DNA from: a bacterium
GTDB taxonomy: Bacteria; Planctomycetota; Planctomycetia; Planctomycetales; Planctomycetaceae
Direction: 5' to 3'
NCBI GenBank assembly: GCA_016124895.1
Contig: WGMU01000007.1
Location: 1 to 55,743, forward strand
Length of the DNA stretch: 55,743 nucleotides
The translations under genes were made by a program, and so were the position numbers. Below the pieces are notes generated by a model. That model was given only the letters and a program-made list of their open reading frames with translations, was not told where the DNA came from and searched no databases. Shown piece after piece: positions 1-42,552 of this stretch. The first letter of the stretch is position 1, and every line of letters begins with the position of its first letter.

Positions 1-561
1 ATTCTCACGAATACTGGATTCGGCACGCATGACTTCGACCAATGGAATGACTTCTCGCGTGCCCTGCTGCTTGTCCTGATGTTTGTTGGCGGCTGCGCCG
101 GAAGCACGAGTTGCAGCATCAAGGTCGTGCGGTATCTCATGCTCTATAAAGGATTGGGCGTTGAAATTGAGAGAGCCTGGCGACCGAATGTCGTCCGGGC
201 AGTCCGCATGGATGGGAAGCCCGTGGATGCAAGAGTTATCGAGCATGTGTTCCTGTACTTCGGGCTCGTCGCGGTCGTATGCGTAACGGCATGGTTCGGG
301 CTGATGCTGTTTGAACCGGACAATCTCTGGACCAGTCGAAGCCTCCCGGCAGAAAGCAAGTTACTCGACTGTGCCAGCGCCGTGGCAGCGACGGTCAATG
401 GAGTCGGTCCAGGTCTCGGAGTCGTGGGAGCCACACAGAACTATGCTCTTCTGCACCCGTGCAGCAAACTCATCTGCACAGCCCTCATGCTGCTGGGGCG
501 TCTGGAATTCATCCCGCTCCTGGTCCTGTGCGTACCGGCCTTCTGGCGGCGCATGAGCTGA
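1..561 (+). CDS. TrkH-family potassium uptake protein, C-terminal part
   Basis: This is the end of an integral membrane K+ transporter subunit; its 5' part lies outside the window and the frame is open from base 1. The selectivity-filter-like loops are visible as NTGFG near the start, GGCAGSTSCSIKV, and NGVGPGLGVVG. The family's C-terminal signature LMLLGRLEFIPLLVL is followed by the usual short FWRR tail. TrkH forms the pore and works with a cytoplasmic TrkA-type NAD-binding subunit, which is not seen here. The second repeat reads STSCSI where STGGGI is common. The stop is followed within 15 bp by the convergent end of the next gene. Confidence 0.9.
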   Translation: MLTNTGFGTHDFDQWNDFSRALLLVLMFVGGCAGSTSCSIKVVRYLMLYKGLGVEIERAWRPNVVRAVRMDGKPVDARVIEHVFLYFGLVAVVCVTAWFGLMLFEPDNLWTSRSLPAESKLLDCASAVAATVNGVGPGLGVVGATQNYALLHPCSKLICTALMLLGRLEFIPLLVLCVPAFWRRMS

Positions 562-575
562 CAGAAAGTCTGAGT

Positions 576-2597
576 TCATTGCGGCGGAACGCAGTCATCA
601 AGCACCAGCGCCAAAAACCACGGAGCGAACTCGATCCAGCTTCCGACGAAATCAAAGAAGTCGATACCGGAGTAGCGCGTGCCGAACAGAGGTGTCTCCG
701 GCGCGTGGTACAGACACCAGAAACGCAGGTAGTAAATCAGCGTCAGCCCTGAGAGCAGCAGCCAGGCTCGTGAGCGGGCAAAGGGGACAAGTGGCAGAGC
801 CCACGCCCAGTACCAGGGATTCTGCGTCGGCTGCAACAACCAGAACCACGCGACCGTCAGGAACAAAAGCATCAACCAGTTGGTCGCACTGGTAGAAGTC
901 GCGGCACGCCACGCCCACCACACGGCGAGTGCGCCGAAGATCGCTGTCGTCATCAGCCGCGTGACGAGAAACGGCACTCGCTGCCTGGTGAGTCCCGTCC
1001 TTGTCGAAATGGTTTCAACGAACGCTTCACGCCAGTCGGACGGTGTCACGACAAACCACGCTCTGCGTGACGAGTCGGGGCCTCGATCCGGCGTGAGGTT
1101 CTCGAACAACAACAGGAACAGGAAGTCGTTCATCTGCCACTGCAAGGCAAAGGCACTCAGTCCGGTCGATGTCGGATCAATCTGTGGGCCTGACGCGATT
1201 CGCTCAGGCGGCGGAGGAACAGGGGGCACGTCCACTTCCGGTCGAGGCTCACTCCCCATGAGAATCGCAGTTTCGGGGAGCCGTGGTTCGTCGGGAAACG
1301 CGACGTCCTTCTGACGTGTAAAGTCGCCTGAAGTTTCTACAGAAGGGAATGAAGGCAACGAAGAATTAGTCGGCCTGTCACTCCGTTTCCTCTGTTGTCT
1401 TCTGTTCGATGCAACCAGGTGAGAGTCAGTCGTCTGCGGAAGACCGGAACCGTAAGCGCCCGCGTCGATGTCGCTCTGGTCGCGAGTAAGCATCGGCAGA
1501 ATCATCACTGCCGAGACACCTGCAAACACGACGGCACCGGCAGCCGCCGTTCGGAATCCCACGCGATGCCACGTCGACACTATCAGCAGCGGCGCAAAGA
1601 TCGCCGGATAGATTTTCGCTCCAACGCCCAGTCCCAGCAGCAGTGATGCAGCGAGAAGCCAGTTCGTGGTGCGGGGGCGTTGATTCGCAGGAGAAGGGAA
1701 CAGACCACGCACGGCGCAATAGATTGCCGCAGTCGTTACGAACACGGCGATTGAATCGAGATGTCCGCTGTTGGCGAACTCCTTCATCAGCAGCGGGCAC
1801 CACGCATAGATGATCGACCACTCAGCGGGGCGATTCACGAATCGCAGCAGCAGGACAAGCATCCCGAAGGTCGCCAGATCAAAAAGCACGATCAGCGATT
1901 TCATCACGAGCAGATGCGCGTGGACCGTCTCCGATGCAGGCGTCATCAGAGCCGCGAGTGCAAAGACGGCCTGGCTGACCGGCGGGTAGACGGTCGTCAG
2001 TTCTCCGAAGTGAACACGCCGCAGAATCTCCGCATGAGCAGCCGAGTTGTCACGCAGTTCGACGAGCCGGTTCAGATCAGCCGGCAGGTCTGCGTTCGCG
2101 TTGACATCCAGAACCTGCTGCGGGCTGTAGCGAAACGGGTTCACTCCGGCTGCGACCGACTGTCCGTCCCACAGATAGCGGTATGCGTCGACTTCTTGAA
2201 TCGGCTCGCTGAACAGCAACAGCAGGCGGAACGCGAGTGCGAAGACAACGACGACCGGCAGACTGCCGTCCGTAGCGCCGCTCGCCAGAGCGTGGTCGTC
2301 TTGATGGCGATCCACGATCTGCCGCCGCTCGTCCACCGTCTGGCGACAGTAGCAACGGGCAGTGGCCCGCTGCACCAGCCAGACCTGCAGCAGGTACAGC
2401 AGAAACACGCCGCCGAACATTGCCATCACCCCCAGCAGAGGACGGTCGATGCCCGGAGTTCCGTAGGCGAAGTCGCGACTGAGCCAGACAACGCCGACAT
2501 ACAGCCACCACGAGATGAATCCGGTCACTCCGAGTTGCACCGGCAACCGCCTCAGCACGGACACCGACGGTGCGGTCTTCGCGAGCGGCTCAGACAT
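576..2597 (-). CDS. GT-C type membrane glycosyltransferase (GT87/mannosyltransferase-like)
   Basis: This is a polytopic membrane protein of about 673 residues. An early loop carries the motif DAYRYLWDGQSVAAGVNPFR, which is characteristic of GT-C enzymes that move a sugar from a polyprenyl-phosphate donor on the outer face of the membrane. Many hydrophobic helices follow. A long Pro/Asp/Ser-rich loop of about 130 residues, with little predicted structure, sits near the middle and looks like an insertion relative to the family. I chose the ATG at 2597 because it overlaps the stop of the upstream glycosyltransferase by 8 bp, which suggests translational coupling. The pair probably acts together in lipid-linked sugar transfer. 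The acceptor is unknown. Confidence 0.75.
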   Translation of the reverse strand: MSEPLAKTAPSVSVLRRLPVQLGVTGFISWWLYVGVVWLSRDFAYGTPGIDRPLLGVMAMFGGVFLLYLLQVWLVQRATARCYCRQTVDERRQIVDRHQDDHALASGATDGSLPVVVVFALAFRLLLLFSEPIQEVDAYRYLWDGQSVAAGVNPFRYSPQQVLDVNANADLPADLNRLVELRDNSAAHAEILRRVHFGELTTVYPPVSQAVFALAALMTPASETVHAHLLVMKSLIVLFDLATFGMLVLLLRFVNRPAEWSIIYAWCPLLMKEFANSGHLDSIAVFVTTAAIYCAVRGLFPSPANQRPRTTNWLLAASLLLGLGVGAKIYPAIFAPLLIVSTWHRVGFRTAAAGAVVFAGVSAVMILPMLTRDQSDIDAGAYGSGLPQTTDSHLVASNRRQQRKRSDRPTNSSLPSFPSVETSGDFTRQKDVAFPDEPRLPETAILMGSEPRPEVDVPPVPPPPERIASGPQIDPTSTGLSAFALQWQMNDFLFLLLFENLTPDRGPDSSRRAWFVVTPSDWREAFVETISTRTGLTRQRVPFLVTRLMTTAIFGALAVWWAWRAATSTSATNWLMLLFLTVAWFWLLQPTQNPWYWAWALPLVPFARSRAWLLLSGLTLIYYLRFWCLYHAPETPLFGTRYSGIDFFDFVGSWIEFAPWFLALVLDDCVPPQ

Positions 2598-5987: not shown

Positions 5988-7508
5988 TCAGCGGGTCCAC
6001 GAGAGCCAATTGCGCATCAGCGACGCAATGAACGGCGTCAGTCGCGTGCGGTTGTACTGGTCGCCGAGTTTGCGGATGGCTTCGGCCTGCGTCGGGTAAG
6101 GGTGAATCGTACTGCCGATTCCCTTGAGGCCGACGCCGTTCTTCATCGCCACTGTGATCTCGGAAATCAGGTCGCCAGCATTCGGAGCCACAACCGTCGC
6201 ACCCACGATCTGATCAGTCCCTTTCCTCAGATGCACTTTGACGAAGCCTTCGGTTTCTCCTTCAAGGATCGCGCGGTCGACTTCGGAGAACTCCTGCACG
6301 AACGTCGTGACGTCGATGCCGCGTTCGGTCGCTTCGTTCTCGTACAGGCCGACATGAGCGACTTCGGGTGACGTGTACGTGCTCCTGGGAATCGTCAGGG
6401 CGCTCGCTTTCGACCGCCCCTTGAACAGAGCATTGCCAATCACGATGCGGGCCATGAAGTCGGCCGCGTGCGTGAACTTGTATTTCGAGCAGATGTCGCC
6501 TGCCGCGTAGATGTTTGGATTCGTCGTCTGCAGCCGGTCGTTGACCGTCACACCGATTCGCTCGTCGAAGTCCACGCCAACGGTTTCCAGTCCCATGTTC
6601 TGCACGTTGGGAGCGCGGCCCACGGAGACCAGCAACTGATCGACCAGCTCGTCGTACTGGCGATCGTGCGAGTTCACGGACAGTCGCACACAGTCGCCGT
6701 CGCGGCTGAGCTGCAGATTCTTCCCGCAGCAAAGCAGGTTCACTCCGTCTCGTTCCATTGAAGCCTGCACGATGCGTGCGGCCTCGCGGTCTTCGCGTGG
6801 AAGGATGCCGTGTTCGGCTTCGACCAGAAACACTTCAGAACCGAACAGCGCAAATGACTGAGCCATCTCGCAGCCGATCGGCCCGGCTCCGATGATTCCC
6901 AGCCGCTTCGGCAGCTCCGTCAGTGAGAACAGCGATTCGTTCGTCAGATAGGGAACGTCGCTCAGGCCGGGAATCGGCGGCGCGGAAGCTCGTGCCCCGG
7001 TCGCAATGACGGCCTTCTTGAACTGCAGAGTCTGGCCAGCGACCTCGACCGAATTCGAACCGGTGAACCGGGCCTGTCCCTGATAGAGATCAATGCCCAG
7101 TTTCCGAATGCGTTCGGCAGAATCGTTCGGTGCGATCTCCGACCGCAATCGTCGCATGCGCTGCATGACGCGACCGAAGTCGACGCTCACATCACCTTGG
7201 ACGTCGATGCCGAACGCATTGGCATAGCGAATTGTCCGCGCGACACGAGCCGCACTGATGATTCCCTTCGACGGAACACAGCCGACGTTGAGACAGTCGC
7301 CGCCCAGCAGTTCGCGTTCGATCAAAGCCACCTTCGCGCCCAGCCCGGCAGCTCCGATGGCGGAGACCAGTCCAGCCGCACCAGCTCCGATGACCACCAG
7401 GTTGTAGCGACCATCCGGTGTCGGGTTGGTCCAGTCTCGCGGCTTCACGTGAGCTTCGAGTGCGAGATTGAATTCATCCTGCGGCTGCAGTTGAACGAGC
7501 GTGGTCAT
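5988..7508 (-). CDS. FAD-dependent pyridine nucleotide-disulfide oxidoreductase, mercuric-reductase-like
   Basis: This is a flavoprotein of 506 residues. The FAD site is LVVIGAGAAGLVSA (near residue 37). The redox-active disulfide lies in GGDCLNVGCVPSK (Cys72/Cys77), the NAD(P) site is LGIIGAGPIGCEMAQ, and the second FAD motif is NIYAAGDIC. The dimer-interface catalytic His/Glu region is HPYPTQAEAIRKLGD. It lacks both the N-terminal HMA domain and the C-terminal vicinal cysteines of true MerA, so mercury reduction is not certain. An AGGAAG site supports the ATG at 7508. Its partner downstream of a 67-bp gap is a TVP38-type membrane protein; that pairing is common for this subgroup. Confidence 0.88.
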   Translation of the reverse strand: MTTLVQLQPQDEFNLALEAHVKPRDWTNPTPDGRYNLVVIGAGAAGLVSAIGAAGLGAKVALIERELLGGDCLNVGCVPSKGIISAARVARTIRYANAFGIDVQGDVSVDFGRVMQRMRRLRSEIAPNDSAERIRKLGIDLYQGQARFTGSNSVEVAGQTLQFKKAVIATGARASAPPIPGLSDVPYLTNESLFSLTELPKRLGIIGAGPIGCEMAQSFALFGSEVFLVEAEHGILPREDREAARIVQASMERDGVNLLCCGKNLQLSRDGDCVRLSVNSHDRQYDELVDQLLVSVGRAPNVQNMGLETVGVDFDERIGVTVNDRLQTTNPNIYAAGDICSKYKFTHAADFMARIVIGNALFKGRSKASALTIPRSTYTSPEVAHVGLYENEATERGIDVTTFVQEFSEVDRAILEGETEGFVKVHLRKGTDQIVGATVVAPNAGDLISEITVAMKNGVGLKGIGSTIHPYPTQAEAIRKLGDQYNRTRLTPFIASLMRNWLSWTR

Positions 7509-7575
7509 GAATTGGTCTTCCTGGCCGATGAGTGTCTGAAGGTGCTTCGGTATGCGAGATGGTTTTCGCAATGCG

Positions 7576-8373
7576 TCACGGTGTTGGAGCTGATTCGTCA
7601 GTGACCGGCGCCATCGAGTTGTCGCCAGATGATGGACCGAACCGGTGCATCGCCTTCCTGACGACAATCGGAAACAGTCCGAGCAGGACGAAGGCGACGA
7701 TCAGTTGTGGTGAGAGGATGCCGCCGGCACCGCGTTCGGCGAGCGTCGCGAGGTCCGGCACGCTGGCCCCGGCGTAAACGTAGACAGCGGTCCCCGCGAG
7801 CATTCCCACCTGGCTGACCCACCAGTAAGTCCAGGTGCGCAGCGGCGTCAGGCCCATCACGACGTTGATCACAAAGAAGGGCACAGCAGGAATCAGCCTC
7901 AGCGTGAAGAGGTAGAACGCCCCTTCCCGTTCGAGAGCCGTGTTGAAGCCAGCCAGCCGCTCGCCAAATCGGCTCTGAACAGCGTCCCGCAGGATGTACC
8001 GGCTGAGCAGAAATGCGAGCGTCGCTCCGGACGTTGACGCGAAACTGACCAGCAGCACGCCCCGCCAGAATCCGAAATACCACCCGAACGCCAGCGTCAG
8101 AATCGTCGCTCCCGGCAGAGAAAGGCCGGTTACGAGGACATACAGCAGAAACGCCACTCCGGAAACCAGCGCGGGATGATCCTGCTGATACGCCCGCAGT
8201 TCGGCTTCCTGAGCAGCCAGGCTTTCGAGCGTCAACGTGTCTCGATACTGACTCCACGCGACGGCCATCACCGCTCCAATGGCCAGCAGCGTCAGAACCT
8301 TCTTCCATCCGCCACGGCCACTACCAGCGGTGCCCGATTCCGAGTGACTCTGGTGGTTGCCTTCACTGTCCAT
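7576..8373 (-). CDS. TVP38/TMEM64 (VTT domain) inner-membrane protein
   Basis: This membrane protein has the VTT-domain hallmarks: GLSLPGATILTLAFGWYFGF, then SGATLAFLLSRYILRD and FTLRLIPAVPFFVINVVMGL, with about five membrane helices. Family members are DedA relatives with suspected lipid-scramblase or transport roles. The ATG at 8373 (MDSEGNHQ) is preceded by GGGAG; an in-frame ATG at 8451 would add 26 polar residues without a good ribosome site. The gene is followed by the mercuric-reductase-like flavoprotein, and the two are probably co-transcribed. The substrate is unknown. Confidence 0.85.
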   Translation of the reverse strand: MDSEGNHQSHSESGTAGSGRGGWKKVLTLLAIGAVMAVAWSQYRDTLTLESLAAQEAELRAYQQDHPALVSGVAFLLYVLVTGLSLPGATILTLAFGWYFGFWRGVLLVSFASTSGATLAFLLSRYILRDAVQSRFGERLAGFNTALEREGAFYLFTLRLIPAVPFFVINVVMGLTPLRTWTYWWVSQVGMLAGTAVYVYAGASVPDLATLAERGAGGILSPQLIVAFVLLGLFPIVVRKAMHRFGPSSGDNSMAPVTDESAPTP

Positions 8374-8794
8374 CGGTGGCTCCCGAACCTCTGTGGGCCT
8401 TTCCGACTGGAGGCCGCCTGTTGATAAAAGTCTGCTCGTGAGATCGCTCACACCGACGTGACGGGGACCGGTCCAGGTGCCTTACAGCGAAACGGAAAGA
8501 TGTTCCGGAGACTTTCCAGGCGTGCCAATGATGCAGAGTCGTCACGTTGGTTGGTCGATCGGCAGCGAAAAGGTTTGCCAGCGAGTGGTGTAAGTCAGGC
8601 GGCCCTGTCGTCGTCACTCACTGTGGCCGCGATCGATGCGACTTCAGACGCGAAACCGTCTGGCTCAATCCGATCGCTGTGGTCTGCAGACGCCTCAGGG
8701 AAGAGTTGCAGTGTTGAGCATCGCCAGCCCACACGCGTCGGCAACAAACTCACTTTCACTCAATGGCGAGTGAACCAACCAGGGAAGCAGAAAA
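8374..8794. other. Intergenic region with no recognisable gene
   Basis: This stretch separates the leftward TVP38/flavoprotein unit from rightward genes, so it should contain divergent promoters. I see no RNA gene and no strong palindrome in it. Short open frames here have no family features. Confidence 0.4.
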
Positions 8795-9153: not shown

Positions 9154-9576
9154 ATGACAACTCACAGCGGAAGTCTGTCGATCGGGCAGTTGGCAAAGCG
9201 GGCCGGGGTCGACGTCGAGACCGTTCGCTACTCCGCACGCGAAGGCCTGCTTGTTGAGCCGCAGCGACGGCAGAGTGGCTATCGGCAGTACAGGAACGAC
9301 ACAGTCGGCCGGCTGCTGTTCATTCGCCGGGCGAAGGAACTCGGCTTCACGCTCAAGGAGATCAGTGAGCTGCTGTCACTCCGCATCGACGAGGACAAGA
9401 CCTGTGCCGACGTCCGGCAGCAGGCCGAAGCGAAGCTCGTCGATATCGAGGAACGCATCAGGTCGCTGCAGCGCATGAAGCGGGCTCTGGTGAAGCTCAC
9501 ACGCCAGTGTCAGGGCAGCAGCCCGACCAGTGAATGTCCGATACTCGAATCGCTGGACCGGAAGGAGACGAACTGA
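9154..9576 (+). CDS. merR: MerR-family metal-responsive regulator (mercury type)
   Basis: This 140-residue regulator has an N-terminal winged HTH (LSIGQLAKRAGVDVETVRYS), a long dimerisation helix, and three cysteines at 84, 119 and 128. The 119-128 spacing, in CQGSSPTSECP, matches the metal-binding loop of mercury MerR, and Cys84 sits where the third thiolate is expected. The DNA-reading segment is VRYSAREGLL, where most relatives have a second aromatic and an Arg (RYYERxGLL). AGGAGG precedes the ATG. Its stop overlaps the next ATG, and the upstream promoter has the long spacer these proteins act on, so the gene probably autoregulates its own operon. Confidence 0.88.
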   Translation: MTTHSGSLSIGQLAKRAGVDVETVRYSAREGLLVEPQRRQSGYRQYRNDTVGRLLFIRRAKELGFTLKEISELLSLRIDEDKTCADVRQQAEAKLVDIEERIRSLQRMKRALVKLTRQCQGSSPTSECPILESLDRKETN

Positions 9577-10319
9577 TGGCGAACGTCGAACTGATCTGTG
9601 CCGCCGATTGCCCGCACGTGGACGCTGCTCGGGAACAGCTTCGCCGCGCGTTTCGGACAGTCGGACAGCCGGCCAACTGGCAGGAGTGGGACCGCGGAGA
9701 TACGGCCAGTCCCGCCTATGTCCGACAGTTCGGTTCGCCGACGATTCTGATTGACGGTCAGGACGTGACCGGTACCGCCCCCTCGGCCGATGCCGACTGC
9801 TGCCGGGTCTATCACTCGCAGCATGACGGGCTGCGGGGAGTGCCGCCGGTCGAAGCCATCGTCTCAGCGCTGCTTCAGGGCGGTGCCGGCGGCGCCACGG
9901 GTGGCCGCTGGCGATCATGGCTGGTGGTGATCCCGGCCATTGGTGTGTCGCTGCTGCCGAAGCTGGCGTGTCCGGCGTGCTGGCCGGCGTATGCCGGTCT
10001 GCTGAGTGTGATTGGTCTGGGCTTTCTGACGCAGACGAAATACCTGCTGCCACTGACGGTTGGATTCCTCGTGGTGGCCGTGGGAGCACTGGGGATCCGG
10101 GCTCGACAGCGGCGCGGGTACGGGCCGTTCCGCATCGGCCTGGTGGCTGCCGCCGTGGTGATCATCGGCAAGTTTCTGTCCGAATCCGATGCCGCCATGT
10201 ACGGCGGGATCGCCCTGCTGATCGCGGCCTCGCTGTGGAACACCTGGCAGAAACGAAAGACGTCACCCTCCTGCCCGGCGTGTGACCGGGCAGGAGATCA
10301 TTGCAACTCTTCCGAATGA
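9576..10319 (+). CDS. Mercury-transport-like membrane protein with N-terminal thioredoxin-like domain
   Basis: This is a 247-residue protein in two parts. Residues 1-95 look like a thioredoxin-fold domain (VELICAADCPHVDAAREQL; later GSPTILIDGQDV, and a Cys-Cys pair in DADCCRVYH). The rest is a membrane domain with four helices, beginning LPKLACPACWPAYAGLLSVI, whose CPAC pair resembles the Cys motif of MerT/MerC transporters. A C-terminal SCPACDRAGDHC adds more thiols. Such a protein could capture a soft metal and pass it inward. The ATG overlaps the merR stop by one base, and GAAGGAG lies upstream. The ion is inferred from the MerR context and not shown. Confidence 0.7.
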   Translation: MANVELICAADCPHVDAAREQLRRAFRTVGQPANWQEWDRGDTASPAYVRQFGSPTILIDGQDVTGTAPSADADCCRVYHSQHDGLRGVPPVEAIVSALLQGGAGGATGGRWRSWLVVIPAIGVSLLPKLACPACWPAYAGLLSVIGLGFLTQTKYLLPLTVGFLVVAVGALGIRARQRRGYGPFRIGLVAAAVVIIGKFLSESDAAMYGGIALLIAASLWNTWQKRKTSPSCPACDRAGDHCNSSE

Positions 10320-10329
10320 GGATCTCAAA

Positions 10330-10599
10330 ATGACTGACAAACGACAGGTCGAAGTTTTCACGGCCGGATGCGTGGCGTGTGACGAAGCGGTGCAACTGGT
10401 CCAGAGCATGGCCTGCCCGTCGTGCGACGTCCAAGTGCTCGACATGCAGGATGCCAGCGTCGCCGCCCGCGCGAAGAAGCTCGGTATCCAGCGAGTCCCC
10501 GCCGTAGTCATTAACGGCAGACTGGCCGACTGTTGCGCCGAACCATGTCTGGACGAAACGGCGCTCAAAGCCGCCGGCCTCGGCCAGCCCGCAATCTGA
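10330..10599 (+). CDS. Small thioredoxin/glutaredoxin-like protein
   Basis: This is an 89-residue thioredoxin-fold protein. It has strand VEVFTAGCVACDEAVQLV with a CVAC active pair, a second CPSC pair about 18 residues later, the cis-proline region IQRVPAVVINGRLADCC, and a final CAEPC. Such small disulfide proteins in metal operons move thiol-bound metal or reduce the transporter. It begins 10 bp after the transporter gene and is the last gene of the MerR-controlled unit. It is convergent with the peroxiredoxin downstream; no clear terminator is visible between them. Confidence 0.8.
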   Translation: MTDKRQVEVFTAGCVACDEAVQLVQSMACPSCDVQVLDMQDASVAARAKKLGIQRVPAVVINGRLADCCAEPCLDETALKAAGLGQPAI

Positions 10600-10643: not shown

Positions 10644-11720
10644 TCATTTCAGCGATTTCAGTTCGCTGAGGAGTTCCTCCGGTTTCGGACGATCCGCGAA
10701 GGTCTTTGCCCGGCGTTCGTAGCGCAGGATGCCGTCGCGGTCGATGATGAACGTTGCCGGACGGTTGCTCCATTCAACGTGGATGCGCATCTGAAACGCG
10801 ACGCCGAAGGTCGCACTCACCGTCTGAGACGGATCGGCCAGCAGCGGGTAATGCAGGTCGTCAGTGGTCAGCCCGCTTTCCTTGAGCAGCGACTTTGTCG
10901 ACCACGCTTCGTGAGGATCGATCGCAATCAGTTGGGCATTCAATTGGTCCAAGTCTCCGAGCCGGTCGCGCAACTGCGCGAGCTGTCCATGACAGACCGG
11001 TCAGGTGTCGCCATAGATGAAGACCAGCACGACGGCCTTTTTTCCTTTGAAGTCGCTGAGCTTTACGATCTCACCGGTCGCCGCCGTGAGCGTGAAGTCC
11101 GGAGCCGACTGCCCGAGCTTCGCCGAGTTCATCGTCTTCGAGTTCCACTCGATCAGTTGCCGCACCACGACCTGGTCGAGCCGCGTGCCGTCACGCTCGA
11201 TGGCGTAGTCAATGTGTCTCCGGACGTCCCGGTTTGTTTCGGCTTCCTGCAGCGACTTCCAGTCGACAGTCTTTCCATCGCGGCCCGTCATGCCCAATGC
11301 GTCAACCGCGTACAGCCGCACTGCCGGATCAGCGTCCGACTTTGCTGCTTCGATCAGGGGCTCGGCGGGAACCCACGGAGACAGATATCCCAGAGCCTGA
11401 GCCGCCAGTATTCGCTCAGGAGTGGATTCCGACTTGAGACTTTTGAGCAACACTTTGACAGCCTGCTGTCCCTCCTCGCGATACCGAACAAGCTGTTGAA
11501 GGGTCTGCATCCGGAGCTGCCAGCCCCGGTCGTCGTCAGCCCGCATGTAGCCCACGCCGCCTCGGGATTGCTGCCACAGAGTTTCGTCCCAGCCATCCAC
11601 GAACCGACTGAGCAACTGGTGCGGCAACGGCACTGCCGCCGCACCGGCGTCCTGAGCCCTGGCGGAGCACGTCAGTCCGACACCCAGCAACAGGACGATC
11701 GCGATCGATGCAGATTTCAT
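10644..11720 (-). CDS. HEAT-repeat peroxiredoxin, probable selenoprotein (in-frame UGA)
   Basis: The frame encodes a signal peptide (MKSASIAIVLLLGVGL), HEAT/PBS-lyase-like helices (about residues 80-170, for example LAAQALGYL and VRLYAVDALG), and a C-terminal AhpC/TSA redoxin domain. It reads APDFTLTAATGEIVKLSDF, then VVLVFIYGDT, then UGA, then PVCHGQLAQL. The UGA is codon 240, exactly where the peroxidatic cysteine belongs, giving UPVC (UxxC). The frame stays open and conserved for another 118 codons (IDRDGILRYERR near the end). A SECIS-like stem-loop follows the UGA. I read this as selenocysteine rather than a pseudogene: no other lesion is present and the stop falls on the one catalytic residue. 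It lies 40 bp downstream of the fused transferase gene on the same strand. No sel genes are in the window. Confidence 0.82.
10962..11003 (-). promoter_or_regulatory. Putative bacterial SECIS element
   Basis: Reading the mRNA from the UGA, the next bases CCGGU pair with ACCGG 34 nt later as a lower stem. An upper stem of CGCGC and GCGCG closes a 4-nt loop AGUU that begins 25 nt after the UGA. This meets published bacterial rules: a loop 16-37 nt from the UGA, a stem of at least 4 bp, and a G among the first two loop bases. A small extra hairpin, CUGUC-AUG-GACAG, lies between. The fold was found by eye. Confidence 0.65.
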
Positions 11721-11760
11721 TCGTCGACCCTCGGTATCATGTGAAAGCGGTTGGAAACTC

Positions 11761-13173
11761 TCACGAATCCTGAAACGACACGCCTGCCCCAGGCACAGAG
11801 GTTTCAGTCGCGGCAGTATCCCTGACAACTCGATTGCCTGTATAGAGCCGTGAGATGCGTTCCGGGCTGACGCCGCAGCAGTACATCGCGACGCAGGCTT
11901 GATTGGTCAGCGTGGTTGTGACTGCTCCCAGTCGCTTCCACCGGCGTCCTGATGTCAGTGCAGTTGAAGTTGCGATCGCAATTCGGCCAGCGGTCTTCAG
12001 ACGACGACAGAACTCGAAGTCCTCCATGATCGGCCAGTTTCTGAACCCGCCGATTCGGAAGAAGTCCCTCGAACGGAGAAACAATCCCTGGTCTCCATAC
12101 GGGAGCTGCAGGAGTCGAGTCCGCAGGTTCGTTCCGAACTCGATACAACGCAAAGGCCAGCCTGGCTGGTCAATGCGAAAGCGAAATGCTCCGGCAATCG
12201 CCCCAGTGTCCAGGATGGACTGCATCTCGCTGCGAAAGCTGGCGGGCAGTTGAGTATCTGCGTGCAGGAACAGCAGAGACTCGCCGCGAGCCAAAGCGGC
12301 TCCGGCATTGAGTTGCTTTCCTCGTCCGCGATTCGCTTTCACCACGCGACATCCGAGTTCCCGCGCCAGCTCGGTCGTCCCGTCAGTGCTGCCGCCATCA
12401 GCGATGATGATTTCGCATTCCGGCTCGCTCAGCAAAGGCCGAACAGTCGCTGCTAATTGCGCGGCCTCGTTCAATGTGGGAATCACCACGGACAGCAGGC
12501 CGGGATGCACTTCCGGCAGACAACCTTCAAAGCCACTCCCGATCCGGCGGCAGACAATCAGGTTCTCAGCCACGTCGATATCACTCAGCGGCGGCAACAG
12601 GCCGACAGACTTGCCCAGCTCACGGCACCGATCGAGCGTCTGACCGAGTACCTGCCCGGTTCCCCAGGTGACTCTCTCAAAGAGACGAGCATCAGGTTGT
12701 TTCACCGCTAAGAGGTAGTAGCCACCGTCGTCAGCCGGACCAAGTACAACATCGTGCTGCTCCAGCAGGTTCCAGGTCCGATCCAGAGTCTCTGTCGAAA
12801 GCTGCGGGCAATCCGTGCCAATGACCGTGACAGCTTGGGCGCCTTCGTCGATAGCCGTTGAAATGGCCCCGTGCATGCGTTCGCCGAGATCACCTTCGTG
12901 CTGCTCGAGCCAGACGGCTTTTGAACAATGCCCGGCATCGCTGGACTCAGAATTCTGTCCGGTGAAGCGGACATCCACATCGACGTCCGATCGCTGCGAC
13001 GAATGGCGTTCCGCGAGCCGAAGGGTGTTGGCCAGGAGAGCCGCGTGCAGTTTCGCGGCCCCTTCAGCTCCGAGAGCCGGAATCAGACGTGTTTTCACTC
13101 GCCCCGCTTTCGGGATGCGAGTCATGACAATCAGCCGGCGATCGCGTGCTGACGTGCGAAGAGTCTGATGCAA
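11761..13173 (-). CDS. Fusion of rSAM/selenodomain-associated transferases 1 and 2
   Basis: This is a 470-residue two-domain glycosyltransferase. Residues 1-210 match the DUF2064/TIGR04282 type (VMTRIPKAGRVKTRL, VTVIGTDCPQLSTETL, VLGPADDGGYYLLAV). Residues 225-460 match the TIGR04283 GT2 type (SVVIPTLNEAAQLAATVRPL, IIADGGSTDGT, LLFLHADTQLP, PYGDQGLFLRS). These families are usually separate neighbouring genes next to radical-SAM or selenoprotein genes and appear in arsenosugar-type clusters. Their fusion here, directly upstream of the UGA-containing peroxiredoxin, fits that association. The start is uncertain: a TTG at 13173 keeps the first beta strand intact, while the ATG at 13125 would cut it. 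Confidence 0.85.
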   Translation of the reverse strand: MHQTLRTSARDRRLIVMTRIPKAGRVKTRLIPALGAEGAAKLHAALLANTLRLAERHSSQRSDVDVDVRFTGQNSESSDAGHCSKAVWLEQHEGDLGERMHGAISTAIDEGAQAVTVIGTDCPQLSTETLDRTWNLLEQHDVVLGPADDGGYYLLAVKQPDARLFERVTWGTGQVLGQTLDRCRELGKSVGLLPPLSDIDVAENLIVCRRIGSGFEGCLPEVHPGLLSVVIPTLNEAAQLAATVRPLLSEPECEIIIADGGSTDGTTELARELGCRVVKANRGRGKQLNAGAALARGESLLFLHADTQLPASFRSEMQSILDTGAIAGAFRFRIDQPGWPLRCIEFGTNLRTRLLQLPYGDQGLFLRSRDFFRIGGFRNWPIMEDFEFCRRLKTAGRIAIATSTALTSGRRWKRLGAVTTTLTNQACVAMYCCGVSPERISRLYTGNRVVRDTAATETSVPGAGVSFQDS

Positions 13174-13270: not shown

Positions 13271-13287
13271 CACCGGCTCTGCCGGTG
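13271..13287. repeat. IS200-like left-end hairpin
   Basis: CACCGGC and GCCGGTG pair around a TCT loop. It lies next to the palindrome TTAACTC-A-GAGTTAA (13254-13268). It is identical in sequence to the core of the right-end hairpin. Confidence 0.75.
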
Positions 13288-13327
13288 AGAATTCATCAGG
13301 CTCCGCCGTTCCTGCGAGATGAAAGAC

Positions 13328-13368
13328 GATCCTCCTTGAGGAAGGCCCCGAGGGGCACAAGGAGGATC
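13328..13368 (+). promoter_or_regulatory. Stem-loop sequestering the transposase ribosome site
   Basis: An 11-bp perfect stem, GATCCTCCTTG with CAAGGAGGATC, ends 3 bp before the tnpA ATG and buries its AAGGAGG Shine-Dalgarno sequence. IS200 is known to silence its transposase with this kind of 5' stem-loop, so the same control is likely here. Confidence 0.75.
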
Positions 13369-13371
13369 GCC

Positions 13372-13809
13372 ATGAAGGACTGGCAGAGTCAGTCCCACGT
13401 GAAGTGGGACTGCAAATACCACGTAGTGATTGTACCGAAGTTTCGCCAGCGGGCCTTCTTCGGTCGTAAGCGGGGACAGATCGGAGCAATTCTGCGAGAC
13501 CTGTGCCGGCAGAAGGAAGTTGGACTGGAGCGGGGAAATGCACAGCCTGATCACATCCATATGCTGCTGAGCATTCCGCCGAAGTATTCGGTTGCGATGA
13601 CGGTTGGGTATCTGAAAGGCAAGAGCGCCATTCGGATCCACCGGGAACTGATGCGAACGCAAGGAACGTTGTTTGGAAGGAGCTTCTGGTCACGCGGCTA
13701 TTGTGTGAGCACTGTCGGGCTGGATGAGGCGATGATTCGTCGCTACATCGAGGAACAGGATAAACACGAGCGTGATCAGGAGCGGGGCTTGTTTGACAAC
13801 CAGGATTAA
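13372..13809 (+). CDS. tnpA: IS200/IS605-family Y1 transposase TnpA
   Basis: This 145-residue HUH-type single-strand transposase has the start HVKWDCKYHVVIVPKFRQ, the metal-binding HUH motif in PDHIHMLLSIPP, and a C-terminal SRGYCVSTVG that carries the nucleophilic tyrosine candidate. It then has the helix YIEEQDKHERDQ. Length and layout are normal for the family and no lesion is seen, so it may be active. The ATG at 13372 follows the sequestered AAGGAGG. No accompanying tnpB is present. Confidence 0.92.
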   Translation: MKDWQSQSHVKWDCKYHVVIVPKFRQRAFFGRKRGQIGAILRDLCRQKEVGLERGNAQPDHIHMLLSIPPKYSVAMTVGYLKGKSAIRIHRELMRTQGTLFGRSFWSRGYCVSTVGLDEAMIRRYIEEQDKHERDQERGLFDNQD

Positions 13810-13842: not shown

Positions 13843-14478
13843 TCAAGCCACCGGCTCTGCCGGTGGTTCTGACTCAAGAAGAATCCTGCCTGTATCCAGC
13901 CGTTTGGTGTAATCAGGGTTGCTGTGGGCAAACACGATCTTCCCGGACCTGTCCACGATGTAGACTGCAGGAACGGGGAGTGCGTGGTGTTGCTGCCCGG
14001 ACGCCTTTTCGAGATCGATCCCGAATCCCCTGTATTTGGTGAGGGTCGCATCATCGACCTGGAATGCCAGCCCGAATGCTTTCGCAGCTGTGAGTTTGGA
14101 ATCCGATAGCAGAGGGAACGGTGTCTTCAGTTTCGTCATGTTCTCCTGCGTGTTTTCGGCGGTATCAGGGCTGACCGCGACCAGCGTCGCACCGAGGTTG
14201 GCGATTTCAGGATGTGTCTTAATCAGGTCACGAAAATGGCGAGTGCAGATCGGGCACCAGCTTCCTCGGAAGAAGACGATGACAACCGGCCCCTTTTCGT
14301 GGAGCGATCTCAGCTTGACCGACTTTCCTTTTGCGTCAGTCACGGACACGTCTGGAACTTGCTCCCCGACTTTGATCGGAGCCGTCTCGTTCGCCGTGCC
14401 GGCTACCTTCTGCTCTTCAGCGATGACTGTACCTGCAAGCGACGATGCCATTAGGAATACCAGGAAGAAACGCATCAT
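13843..14478 (-). CDS. Peroxiredoxin-like AhpC/TSA protein, secreted; 3' end inside IS
   Basis: This is a 211-residue protein with a signal peptide (FFLVFLMASSLAGTVIA). A redoxin domain reads VGEQVPDVSVTDAKGKSV, then FFRGSWCPICTRHF with the catalytic WCPIC, then LVAVSPDT, and PVPAVYIVDRSGKIVF. It probably reduces peroxides outside the cytoplasm. AAAGGA precedes the start. The last residues, EPPAEPVA, are encoded by the right-end hairpin of the IS, so the insertion appears to have replaced the original C-terminus; the core domain looks complete. It lies 24 bp downstream of the Crp/Fnr-type regulator on the same strand and is probably in one operon with it. Confidence 0.88.
   Translation of the reverse strand: MMRFFLVFLMASSLAGTVIAEEQKVAGTANETAPIKVGEQVPDVSVTDAKGKSVKLRSLHEKGPVVIVFFRGSWCPICTRHFRDLIKTHPEIANLGATLVAVSPDTAENTQENMTKLKTPFPLLSDSKLTAAKAFGLAFQVDDATLTKYRGFGIDLEKASGQQHHALPVPAVYIVDRSGKIVFAHSNPDYTKRLDTGRILLESEPPAEPVA
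13848..13866. repeat. IS200-like right-end hairpin
   Basis: CCACCGGC and GCCGGTGG pair around TCT. It repeats the left-end hairpin in direct orientation and encodes the last codons of the leftward peroxiredoxin gene. Confidence 0.75.
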
Positions 14479-14502: not shown

Positions 14503-15228
14503 TCAGTGTTCGACGTTAAACGAAACAGATTCACGCAGGCGGGAGGCATCCATGAGCACGATGCAGCGCCGGTCAATATCGATCAGGCCTTCGCTGCGGA
14601 GCTGGCCGAGCATCAAGGTGACAGATTCGCGAGTTGTGCCGATCAGATTTCCGAGTTCGTGATGAGACAACGGTATGGTGATCCGGGCGGTCGTCGTGCC
14701 GACTCCGTTACTGTCACTTCTGGCAGGCCGCTCTCCGAAATCCCGCGACAGGTCCAGCAGAATGTGACAAAGTTTTTGGCGTGTTGTGGCGAACAAAATG
14801 CTCTTCAAGCGGCGTTCGACATGCCGGCGGCGCTGGCAGATCAGTCTTGTCATCGCCAGTGAAAAGTCCGGGTTATCTCGCATGAGCTGTCGCAGATCAT
14901 CTGCGGGGATCGTGACGACTGACGAGTCGGTCAACGTGTCGCAGTAGTCGTCGCGGTCACCCGAATCGCAGACGGCCATCTCGCCGAACAGATCACCCGG
15001 CTGCAGAAAGAACAGGGTGGAGTGTTTTCCAGCCAGCGTGATGTGTGACAGCTTCGCCCGTCCAGACGTCAGCAGCAGGACGTGTCGGGACTCGTGCTGG
15101 GGCATATAGACACAGGAGTTGCGTGCGTACTTGCGGAGTCGACAGCTTTCACTAAGTCGTTCCATTTGCGCGACGGTTAGCGACGCAAGCACATCGCACC
15201 GCCCGAGATGTTTCGTCAGTTCGTCCAT
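14503..15228 (-). CDS. Crp/Fnr-family transcriptional regulator
   Basis: This 241-residue protein has an N-terminal cyclic-nucleotide-binding-like barrel (VLLLTSGRAKLSHITLAG, then FFLQPGDLFGEMAV) and a C-terminal winged HTH (LSHHELGNLIGTTRESVTLM, then LRSEGLIDIDRRCI). It has several cysteines, but I cannot place a firm Fnr-type [4Fe-4S] set. The recognition helix GTTRESVT is typical of this group. The ATG at 15228 (MDELTKHLG) follows AAGGGGA. A TTGCG-N4-CGCAA palindrome 14 bp upstream suggests autoregulation. The next gene, a peroxiredoxin 24 bp away, points to a redox or peroxide response. Confidence 0.9.
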   Translation of the reverse strand: MDELTKHLGRCDVLASLTVAQMERLSESCRLRKYARNSCVYMPQHESRHVLLLTSGRAKLSHITLAGKHSTLFFLQPGDLFGEMAVCDSGDRDDYCDTLTDSSVVTIPADDLRQLMRDNPDFSLAMTRLICQRRRHVERRLKSILFATTRQKLCHILLDLSRDFGERPARSDSNGVGTTTARITIPLSHHELGNLIGTTRESVTLMLGQLRSEGLIDIDRRCIVLMDASRLRESVSFNVEH

Positions 15229-15242
15229 CGACGCTGATCCCC

Positions 15243-15256
15243 TTGCGATCACGCAA
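15243..15256. promoter_or_regulatory. Crp/Fnr-family palindromic site
   Basis: TTGCG-ATCA-CGCAA is a perfect 5+4+5 dyad of the form bound by Fnr/Nnr/Dnr-type regulators. It sits just upstream of the crp/fnr-like start codon and overlaps the region of its ribosome site. Confidence 0.55.
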
Positions 15257-40598: not shown

Positions 40599-40732
40599 GC
40601 TGCTCGGGATTACTCCGACGAGCCTCCATTGAACCGGACAAGCCGTAGGGTAAGGAACCAGCGAGCCATCTCGTTTGTGCATACTCAGCTGAGGCATGCA
40701 TTCCCGTGACGCTTTTCCAATCCCTCCCCTCC

Positions 40733-40767
40733 GAACCACGCATGATAGTTTCCTTATCACGTGGCTC
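40733..40767 (-). other. Group II intron domain V
   Basis: On the minus strand it reads GAGCCACGTGATA, a GGAAAC loop-side segment, then CATGCGTGGTTC. This is the catalytic hairpin of bacterial group II introns with matching stems and bulge. It lies 13 bp after the reverse transcriptase stop, the usual place. Confidence 0.85.
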
Positions 40768-40779
40768 TCCGGTAACGCA

Positions 40780-42552
40780 TTACGCAAGGCGACGTCCGTC
40801 ATAGCTCCCTGAATGAATCTGCTGATGGCATTTCAGACACACGACCAGCGTTTTCCGTCGTCGTGCCGCCATCACCTTTTCCCAGCGACTTCGCCCCTTC
40901 AGGTCTGCGAGTTTTCGGATGTGGTGGACTTCAATGTCCTCCAATGATCCGCACAATTCACATTTCTGAGCGAGTAACCGGTCAATCAGTTCACTCCGAT
41001 CGCTCCAGATCATGGTCGGCATTTCGCCGATAACTGCCCATTCATTCCAGCGAAGCGAAATCCCTCCAAAGTGGGCCGACAACGGCTTCTTCTTTGGGCC
41101 TCGATCCACCGTCACCATCAGCACTTTGTAAGTGCCTTCTGGTGTGACCAGCTCTCGCCGGAACCGTCGGTAAATCTCACGTCGGCTGGTTCTCAACTTG
41201 TTGGCCAGCGTCTTTGTGAGCGACTGCTCCGCAACCCACTTCACGCGACTGAGCGTGTGCAGGTTGTAGGCCAGGCGGTAATACTGCACGACTCCGCTGT
41301 ATTCCGACTGGTAACGAGCCACGATCCCGTATGCACCATCATTCAGACGTTCCGGCAGGTGCACCGGCTTGCCGCCCCGCATGTACTTCGTGCAGTGTTT
41401 CCGCGCGACCGTTTGCGGGACTCTCAGCCCGACGCTGCCATTGATGCAGCGTTGACCACGCCAATCATGTTTATGATCGGCGCGGTGGATGTGGACTTCG
41501 TAACCCAGAAACTTTGCACGCTCTTCACGTCCATTTGTGATGAGCGTCTTTTCGTTACTGAGCTGCAGCTTCAGACGGTCTCCAAGAAACTGACTGATCT
41601 GCTGCTTGATTTCCACAGCCTCGGACTTTGGTCCGGTGTAACCCAGCAGGAAGTCGTCCGCGTATCGCACGTACCACAGGCGTCGAAAGTTCGGATCATC
41701 CGGGTCACGAGACGGAAGCGTCTGTGCTTGCTGTGACAGCCTCCTTGCCTGTTCCCGGTCTCCTTTCTGACGTGCCCGTGATGCGGCGACAGTTAATGCC
41801 ACATACGGCGGATTCGTCTTCCTTTGAGAACCACGCGTGTGCTCCGGTATCAGCTCGCCGTCGACAAAACTGTCAAGGCGATCCAGCACCAGATTTGAAA
41901 GAATGGGGCTGATCACGCCACCTTGCGGAACTCCGCTGTAGGTCGCGTTCCATTTCCAGTCTTCCAGATACCCGGCTTTCAGGAGTCCCCGCATCAGTCG
42001 GTGAAAGCGGTTGTCGTGGATCTTCTCCGCGATGATTTCCATCAGGACCGAATGATCGATCCGATCGAAGCATGCCGAGATATCTCCCTCGATGAACCAC
42101 TTTGTCGCCTTTCCAACACGACGAATTTCCTGCAAGGCCGTGTGGCAGCCGCGTCCCGGACGAAACCCGTGCGAACGGTCACTGAACTGCGGCTCGTAAT
42201 AGGATTCCATGATGGACCGGATGACTTCCTGAAGAAGTTTGTCCGACCAGCACGGCATGCCCAGAGGCCGCATCTTTCCGTTCTTCTTGGGAATGTACGT
42301 GCGTCGGACCGGCGTCCATTGGTACCGCTCGTGTTTGAGCTTCTCAATGATTCTGTCGATCTTCCGCATTGACATCCCGTCCACAGTTTCCGCCGTTGTT
42401 CCCCGTGTCATCGCCCCATCGTTCGCATACAGCTTCGCATAGGCTCGAAGATACAGGTCACGTTGGTAAAGAAGCCGATAGACTCCTTCCAGCGGCAGCC
42501 CGCGTTGTCCTCGTTTTCGTATGATGTTGTTTATTGCTGCGGCGTTCCGCAT
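40780..42552 (-). CDS. ltrA: Group II intron reverse transcriptase/maturase with HNH domain
   Basis: This 590-residue protein has RT blocks including RPLGMPCWSDKLLQEVIRSI, SHGFRPGRGCHTALQEI, FIEGDISACFDRIDHSVLME, GVPQGGVISPILSNL and the active-site YADDFLLGYTG. A maturase X domain (SGVVQYYRLAYNLHTLSRVK) follows. The C-terminal HNH endonuclease is CELCGSLEDIEVHHIRKLAD and CLKCHQQIHSG. It splices and mobilises its intron. All motifs are intact, so the intron may still be mobile. It is encoded in the same direction as the intron, as expected. Confidence 0.95.
   Translation of the reverse strand: MRNAAAINNIIRKRGQRGLPLEGVYRLLYQRDLYLRAYAKLYANDGAMTRGTTAETVDGMSMRKIDRIIEKLKHERYQWTPVRRTYIPKKNGKMRPLGMPCWSDKLLQEVIRSIMESYYEPQFSDRSHGFRPGRGCHTALQEIRRVGKATKWFIEGDISACFDRIDHSVLMEIIAEKIHDNRFHRLMRGLLKAGYLEDWKWNATYSGVPQGGVISPILSNLVLDRLDSFVDGELIPEHTRGSQRKTNPPYVALTVAASRARQKGDREQARRLSQQAQTLPSRDPDDPNFRRLWYVRYADDFLLGYTGPKSEAVEIKQQISQFLGDRLKLQLSNEKTLITNGREERAKFLGYEVHIHRADHKHDWRGQRCINGSVGLRVPQTVARKHCTKYMRGGKPVHLPERLNDGAYGIVARYQSEYSGVVQYYRLAYNLHTLSRVKWVAEQSLTKTLANKLRTSRREIYRRFRRELVTPEGTYKVLMVTVDRGPKKKPLSAHFGGISLRWNEWAVIGEMPTMIWSDRSELIDRLLAQKCELCGSLEDIEVHHIRKLADLKGRSRWEKVMAARRRKTLVVCLKCHQQIHSGSYDGRRLA

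Follow-up and report, generated by a model that had tools for sequence, protein, structure and literature searches.

The minus strand of the analysed DNA, a stretch of 55,743 nucleotides referred to here as the window, carries a gene (10644-11720) with an in-frame TGA, raising the question of whether this codon marks a lesion or directs the insertion of selenocysteine. The frame opens with an ATG (11720-11718), preceded at a distance of 7 nt by a Shine-Dalgarno-like GAGGG read from the sequence (11728-11732, minus strand), and closes with a terminal TGA (10646-10644, minus strand); codon 240 is the in-frame TGA (11003-11001, minus strand). As a preliminary description had it, the frame stays open for 118 codons beyond this position without a further stop. 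Translation of the TGA as Sec yields a product of 358 residues including one Sec, with VLVFIYGDT-U-PVCHGQLAQLRD at the site. Mechanical ORF calling returns two pieces, 11828-11001 (275 aa, TTG start) and 10973-10644 (109 aa), in keeping with the split into two truncated genes that had been anticipated.

The proposed combination of HEAT repeats and a redoxin domain was borne out by domain searches and by an AlphaFold model built with C in place of U from a 21-row alignment (mean pLDDT 85.8). Residues 89-168 (11217-11456, minus strand) match HEAT repeats (PF13646 HEAT_2, E 3.7e-8) and appear in the model as a row of helices, and residues 203-334 (10719-11114, minus strand) constitute a redoxin/AhpC-TSA domain (PF00578, E 6.1e-28; 97.7 bits, the cut-off being 26) with a peroxiredoxin fold. 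A hydrophobic N-terminal segment (residues 1-22; 11655-11720, minus strand), modelled as a low-confidence helix over residues 3-21, is probably a signal peptide on a by-eye reading of the translation. The best structural matches of the model are peroxiredoxins, including the 2-Cys peroxiredoxin 3tkp (Z 16.6, rmsd 1.8 over 153 residues), which is tied with many other peroxiredoxin entries when Z scores within 1 are taken as equal. Foldseek also matches the model to the thiol-disulfide oxidoreductases 4nmu and ResA (2h19).

The preliminary description placed the Sec exactly at the peroxidatic cysteine and labelled the protein a peroxiredoxin, and here the analysis departs from it on both counts. 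In a phmmer alignment with AhpE, U240 lies opposite the Thr of FTGIC and C243 (codon 10992-10994, minus strand) opposite its Cys, which we take to be the peroxidatic residue, leaving the Sec three residues off. TxxC is the peroxiredoxin signature, and the Thr that TxxC and TxxU peroxiredoxins carry three residues ahead of the peroxidatic Cys or Sec is missing from this protein, in which the aligned residue is Sec240. The site reads UPVC, matched by CPVC in Cys homologues, and Cys243 is invariant across the 21-row alignment, a set without the UU and UxxU sister genes, which have other residues at this position. As judged from its sequence, the protein is of the UxxC "Prx-like thiol:disulfide oxidoreductase" type rather than a peroxiredoxin, a name adopted because UxxC is thioredoxin-like, unlike the TxxU of Sec-peroxiredoxins; the available portion of the Sargasso Sea study draws the same contrast for the Prx-like UxxC proteins (PMC1088965).

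A selenoprotein acting as a peroxidase, with either Cys243 (in the peroxidatic position) or U240 reducing peroxide and its partner resolving, would suit the nearest solved relatives, which are peroxiredoxins both by sequence (AhpE) and by structure (2-Cys peroxiredoxins, Z 16.6), as well as the pairing of Cys243 with the active-site Cys of AhpE. The Sec in place of the TxxC Thr, the CxxC of the Cys homologues and the absence of Cys243, by eye, from the UU sister genes all speak against such an activity, which we consider possible though rather unlikely, and our preference goes, with some reserve, to a thiol-disulfide oxidoreductase.

Homology searches were run on samples of the order, class and phylum, which overlap, so that their counts are not additive; in each, the majority of genomes had no match. 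At E 1e-15, the protein had matches in 15 of the 170 genomes sampled from the order, nine of them with a TGA and six stop-free, the latter comprising three HEAT-redoxin proteins with CPVC and three plain peroxiredoxins. The class sample yielded 23 matched stretches in 20 of 397 genomes at E 1e-35, and 18 of the 23 contained TGA (15 with one, three with two), one a TAA and four no stop; one of the single-TGA matches (L027/L052) has an extra TAG upstream. Matches were found in 6 of 392 genomes of the phylum sample, and the three that were new all present TGA at the same codon. The TGA homologues, 36-73% identical and spread over several families of the phylum, have the TGA at the aligned codon, with the signature GD[TG]-U-P[VI]C in 17 distinct loci (8 from the order and 9 from the class) and three further TGA loci in other families of the phylum. 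Homologues that end at this stop would have spoken for true termination; in the matched genomes the TGA is instead conserved and followed by a continued reading frame. For three pairs compared, dN/dS on the 3' side of the TGA was 0.13, 0.14 and 0.22, and the tail is thus under purifying selection.

The expectation that other species would carry Cys at this codon was confirmed by five homologues with ADW-C-PVC (L029, L030, L031, L053 and L057), which are 25-28% identical, and share the order of HEAT repeats followed by redoxin; SelA is missing from four of the genomes that carry them. On the inferred tree, where few inner branches are well supported (6 of 29 starred), these five genes form one separate clade with support of 100/100. 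Two further loci present variants of their own. In L032 (genome G050), a distant HEAT-redoxin gene, U-GGC is accompanied by the same AGUU hairpin, which makes it another Sec variant, and in L089 (genome G739) the frame of the Sec HEAT-redoxin gene does not end with the redoxin domain but runs on into another segment containing CPGC. A plasmid-borne origin was also considered and set aside: a collection of plasmid records returned a single match at E 1e-20, from a haloarchaeon, and nothing closer than its 27.6% identity.

The SECIS-like hairpin with an AGUU loop 25 nt downstream, noted earlier from the sequence alone, conforms to the published bacterial model and is conserved. As given in the Fig. 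2 legend of PMC13188914, a source available in part, this model comprises an apical loop of 3-9 nt with a G within the first two positions, a distance of 16-37 nt from the UGA, a stem of 4-16 bp and an MFE of at most -7.5 kcal/mol. The hairpin at 10966-10981 (minus strand) has a 4-nt AGUU loop (10975-10972) that starts exactly 25 nt past the UGA, six contiguous pairs and an energy of -11.8 kcal/mol over the local hairpin stretch. Its energy is ordinary: the 74 nt from the UGA onwards do not fold with unusual stability (z -0.52; 49 of 200 shuffles as good), 64 of 150 synonymous versions equal the window's best hairpin, and only 4 of 21 TGA loci fall below 5% when best-hairpin energy is compared with that of synonymous versions. 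Fold stability was therefore dropped as evidence for a SECIS, and exact position and loop were tested instead.

Over the 21 TGA loci, the summed stem amounts to 117 pairs, whereas 2000 synonymous randomisations average 21.3 and never exceed 45; in 18 of the 21, an AGUU loop starting exactly 25 nt past the UGA is closed by 4 or more pairs. The remaining loci are L024 and L026, with just 2 contiguous pairs at this position, and L028, with no stem there and instead a 7-pair hairpin with the loop AGUUU at 30 nt. Among four TGA loci added later, L084 and L089 fit at 25 nt, and L087 and L088, whose site is similar to that of L028, present by eye a 7-pair hairpin with the loop CGUGU at 30 nt. In the ungapped alignment of the 21 loci, 83.7% of cells are paired and 4 of 7 pairs show compensatory changes on both sides, with a covariation score of 0.224; shuffled alignments score 0.106, none of 500 attaining the observed value, and slid registers do not exceed 0.083. 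The register slid by +1 likewise has 4 pairs changed on both sides, but only 15% of its cells are paired; 13 of the 21 loci lack the outermost pair of the stem as tested. For the Leu in the loop, 19 of the 21 loci use TTG, a codon that accounts for 95 of 560 Leu codons in the remainder of these genes, and L032, at 28% identity, shares the AGUU hairpin, while kinship among the loci inflates all of these hairpin and locus counts. At the corresponding place, one pair at most forms in any of the five CPVC genes. The significance of the hairpin thus comes from its exact position, loop sequence and conservation, and it is kept far beyond what protein coding demands, that is, selected at the RNA level.

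The machinery for selenocysteine insertion, whose presence had been proposed as a check, is complete in the genome that harbors the gene (8.13 Mb in 195 contigs, 99.8% complete): it encodes a tRNA-Sec with anticodon TCA (73.8 bits), SelB (325 bits), SelA (500 bits) and SelD (261.5 bits), all over their cut-offs. Across the order, tRNA-Sec passes strict filters in 59 of 170 genomes; of the 9 that carry the UGA gene, 8 have it (Fisher P = 0.001), and order and class together have a tRNA-Sec of at least 55 bits in 16 of 19 UGA genomes. The best hits in the other three (G044, G275 and G404) score 46.1, 48.8 and 49.4 bits, and all three have SelA; G275 and G404, together with the Cys-only genome G392 (47.6 bits), lie just over the gathering score of 47. 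Since the second-best match in the gene's own genome reaches 46.8 bits and is not called a tRNA by ARAGORN, these four hits were not counted as tRNA-Sec, and we read them as tRNA-Ser-like. SelA exceeded its cut-off in all 14 UGA genomes tested (13 plus the gene's own), a set that leaves out G236, G238, G268, G349 and G407, and the three new UGA genomes of the phylum sample enter neither the SelA nor the tRNA-Sec counts. Among the five genomes with the Cys gene only, one of which (G009) is 64% complete, SelA was found in one (G011; UGA versus Cys, Fisher P = 0.0013); as the genomes are related, both P values are indicative only.

Two loci of this machinery have features of their own. At L001, the tRNA-Sec gene (1499-1593, minus strand) overlaps the 3' end of a 440-aa ORF (236-1558, plus strand) that reads by eye like a tyrosine integrase, pointing to a possible integration at selC. 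At L018, the SelD of the gene's own genome is part of a 778-residue open frame, a length that would accommodate an Ndh-SelD fusion of the kind reported in the available part of PMC2398784.

Conservation of the TGA, the SECIS hairpin and the full Sec machinery together support the reading proposed at the outset, and we put at roughly 95% the probability that this is a functional selenoprotein gene with selenocysteine at the in-frame TGA. Decoding of UGA as Sec is often incomplete and varies with selenium supply, a property that would also be compatible with programmed termination, in which most of the product stops at residue 239 and the tail is seldom made; with much of the redoxin domain located in that tail, and the tail evolving under constraint, this appears very improbable. 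Slighter still is the chance that the TGA is a recent nonsense mutation in a pseudogene or a sequencing error of TGC or TGT. The two fragments returned by ORF calling are what such a lesion would produce, and decay may occur in the family, where L058 has a TAA and L027 a TAG besides its TGA. Yet the TGA is aligned in independent genomes of several families and co-occurs with SelA, the sequence past it is under purifying selection, and the hairpin is under selection at the RNA level. A genome-wide code change assigning TGA to an amino acid, to which a conserved gene with an in-frame TGA might point, is negligible given that the same gene terminates at TGA, that a sister-profile search of its own genome gave 11 matches with a stop in this one alone, and that the Sec machinery is present.

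For the selenoprotein reading, conservation, SECIS and machinery together suggest that SelB carrying Sec-tRNA would bind the hairpin just 3' of the UGA and that selenocysteine would be put in at residue 240. The product, most likely exported, would fold into helical HEAT repeats followed by a peroxiredoxin-like redoxin domain whose redox centre would be the U240-P-V-C243 pair. By analogy with UxxC and CxxC chemistry, the Sec may attack a substrate disulfide or peroxide, with Cys243 resolving the selenenyl sulfide, and the HEAT repeats probably serve to bind a substrate or partner protein.

The most surprising by-product of the analysis is a set of sister genes with adjacent Sec codons. Genome G349 holds four kinds of gene, namely UPIC (L051), UxxU (L059 with ULVU, L084 with UPGU), UU (L060) and CPSC (L086). 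The UU gene L060 has adjacent in-frame TGATGA at 1669-1674, and a second UU gene, L056 in genome G407, lies on the minus strand with its first TGA at base 2065 of the reverse complement. The two come from different genera, are 48% identical and share a HEAT-redoxin-HEAT arrangement and a long open frame, and both of their genomes have tRNA-Sec. In the two UU and two UxxU genes, the AGUU hairpin lies 25 nt past the first UGA; by arithmetic, its distance from the second is 22 nt in the UU and 16 nt in the UxxU genes, values that the published model allows. When a profile of the UU and UxxU genes was run against 102 genomes from the order of G349, four matched, with UU or UxxU genes in G349 and G407 only, and on the tree the double-Sec genes form a group (82/96) that also takes in L086 and the long-branch L032.

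L086 (site at 1669), which groups with L084 (99/98), keeps the 6-pair stem under a loop, ACUU, that has no G, and is likely a Sec-to-Cys replacement with a possible SECIS fossil; replacement of this kind has been reported before, according to the available part of PMC1794560. L058, the second copy of a tandem in genome G227, has a TAA at the Sec codon (base 2119 of the reverse complement), with the rest of its frame open and the hairpin stem kept under a GGUC loop. On balance, though by a modest degree, we favor an unrecognised superfamily of HEAT-redoxin selenoproteins exploring UxxC, UxxU, CxxC and adjacent UU, in which one fixed hairpin would serve both UGA codons. If made, a tandem-encoded vicinal Sec-Sec would represent an active site of a new kind. 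A literature search for bacterial adjacent Sec found none among the papers listed, the one paper that tells of two tandem UGA codons concerning a viral gene, and the UU motif does not occur in the available portions of PMC13188914, PMC9312934, PMC1088965, PMC1794560 and PMC2398784. With Sec, Cys, double Sec or TAA found at the same codon, in some cases within a single genome, the family provides a natural series on what selenium adds.

Among known systems, the protein most resembles the Prx-like thiol:disulfide oxidoreductase selenoproteins (PF00578; UxxC, UxxU; "Prx-like 1" of the GOS study), with which it shares the AhpC-TSA domain, UxxC, a bacterial SECIS and Cys homologues. In this comparison, made by description rather than by sequence, it differs in the HEAT repeats and probable signal peptide ahead of the redoxin domain and in its UU sisters. 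That family is listed as "predicted with high confidence" in Table 1 of PMC13188914 and appears also in PMC1088965 and PMC2398784, each source being available in part. With Sec-peroxiredoxin (TxxU) and the thiol peroxiredoxins AhpE, BCP and Prx1-4, the protein has the fold in common (19-30% identity among the matches listed), but its Sec takes the place of the TxxC Thr and not of the peroxidatic residue. The CPVC proteins have the same domain order with Cys for Sec, and the haloarchaeal "redoxin domain-containing protein" WP_276256361.1 (27.6% identity) is likened to it by sequence match and name.

None of the 15 NCBIfam (release 20.0) families listed for the protein reaches its own cut-off. 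The best match, the thioredoxin-dependent peroxiredoxin PrxU (NF040737), scores 54.3 bits, far under a cut-off of 270; the SelL-related redox protein (NF040769), which shares the redoxin domain, scores 51.3 bits, under the curated cut-off of 120; and the deiodinase family protein (NF038285) reaches 25.6 bits over residues 184-235, the cut-off being 250. With these models missing the selenoprotein and ORF calling cutting the gene in two, it and its homologues are likely misannotated. Literature searches found no paper on a selenoprotein with HEAT repeats and redoxin, and none of those retrieved for selenocysteine and HEAT repeat concerned such a protein, judged by title or start of the abstract. 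Selenoproteins of two planctomycetes are reported in the available part of PMC4807772, and the family may already be listed in its table S9. The UxxC kind has thus been predicted before, and it is the combination of HEAT repeats, redoxin and probable signal peptide that was not found in print.

The gene neighborhood was compared across 17 stretches (16 loci of about 10-19 kb and the first 22 kb of the window). A Crp/Fnr regulator was found in 6 of the 17, a zf-HC2 protein in 4, a DUF547 protein in 4 and a MerA-like flavoprotein in 3, with assignments resting on Pfam runs for 2 of 6, 4 of 4, 3 of 4 and 2 of 3, respectively, and on BLAST for the remainder. In L063 and L066, the Crp, zf-HC2 and HEAT-redoxin genes adjoin in one direction. 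These neighbors are suggestive of redox or stress regulation; as a clue to mechanism they were set aside as too weak, naming no substrate.

Several other features were observed in the window. A mercury-type cluster lies beside the gene (9154-10599 and 5988-8451), with a MerR-like regulator, a glutaredoxin/thioredoxin-like protein, a VTT-domain protein, a MerA-like flavoprotein and a domain resembling the "DF family (seleno)protein" in its Cys form (47 bits, below the cut-off of 70), fused to a MerC domain. On the other side, one ORF (11761-13173, minus strand) unites the TIGR04282 and TIGR04283 "arsenosugar biosynthesis" glycosyltransferases, both over cut-off. An IS200-like transposase ORF (13285-13809, plus strand) adjoins a Cys redoxin (13843-14478) and a Crp-family regulator (14503-15252). 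Further along, a match to a group II intron (40645-40769, minus strand; Rfam RF00029, 52.2 bits), the sole Rfam match in the window at gathering thresholds, adjoins a 590-aa ORF (40780-42552).
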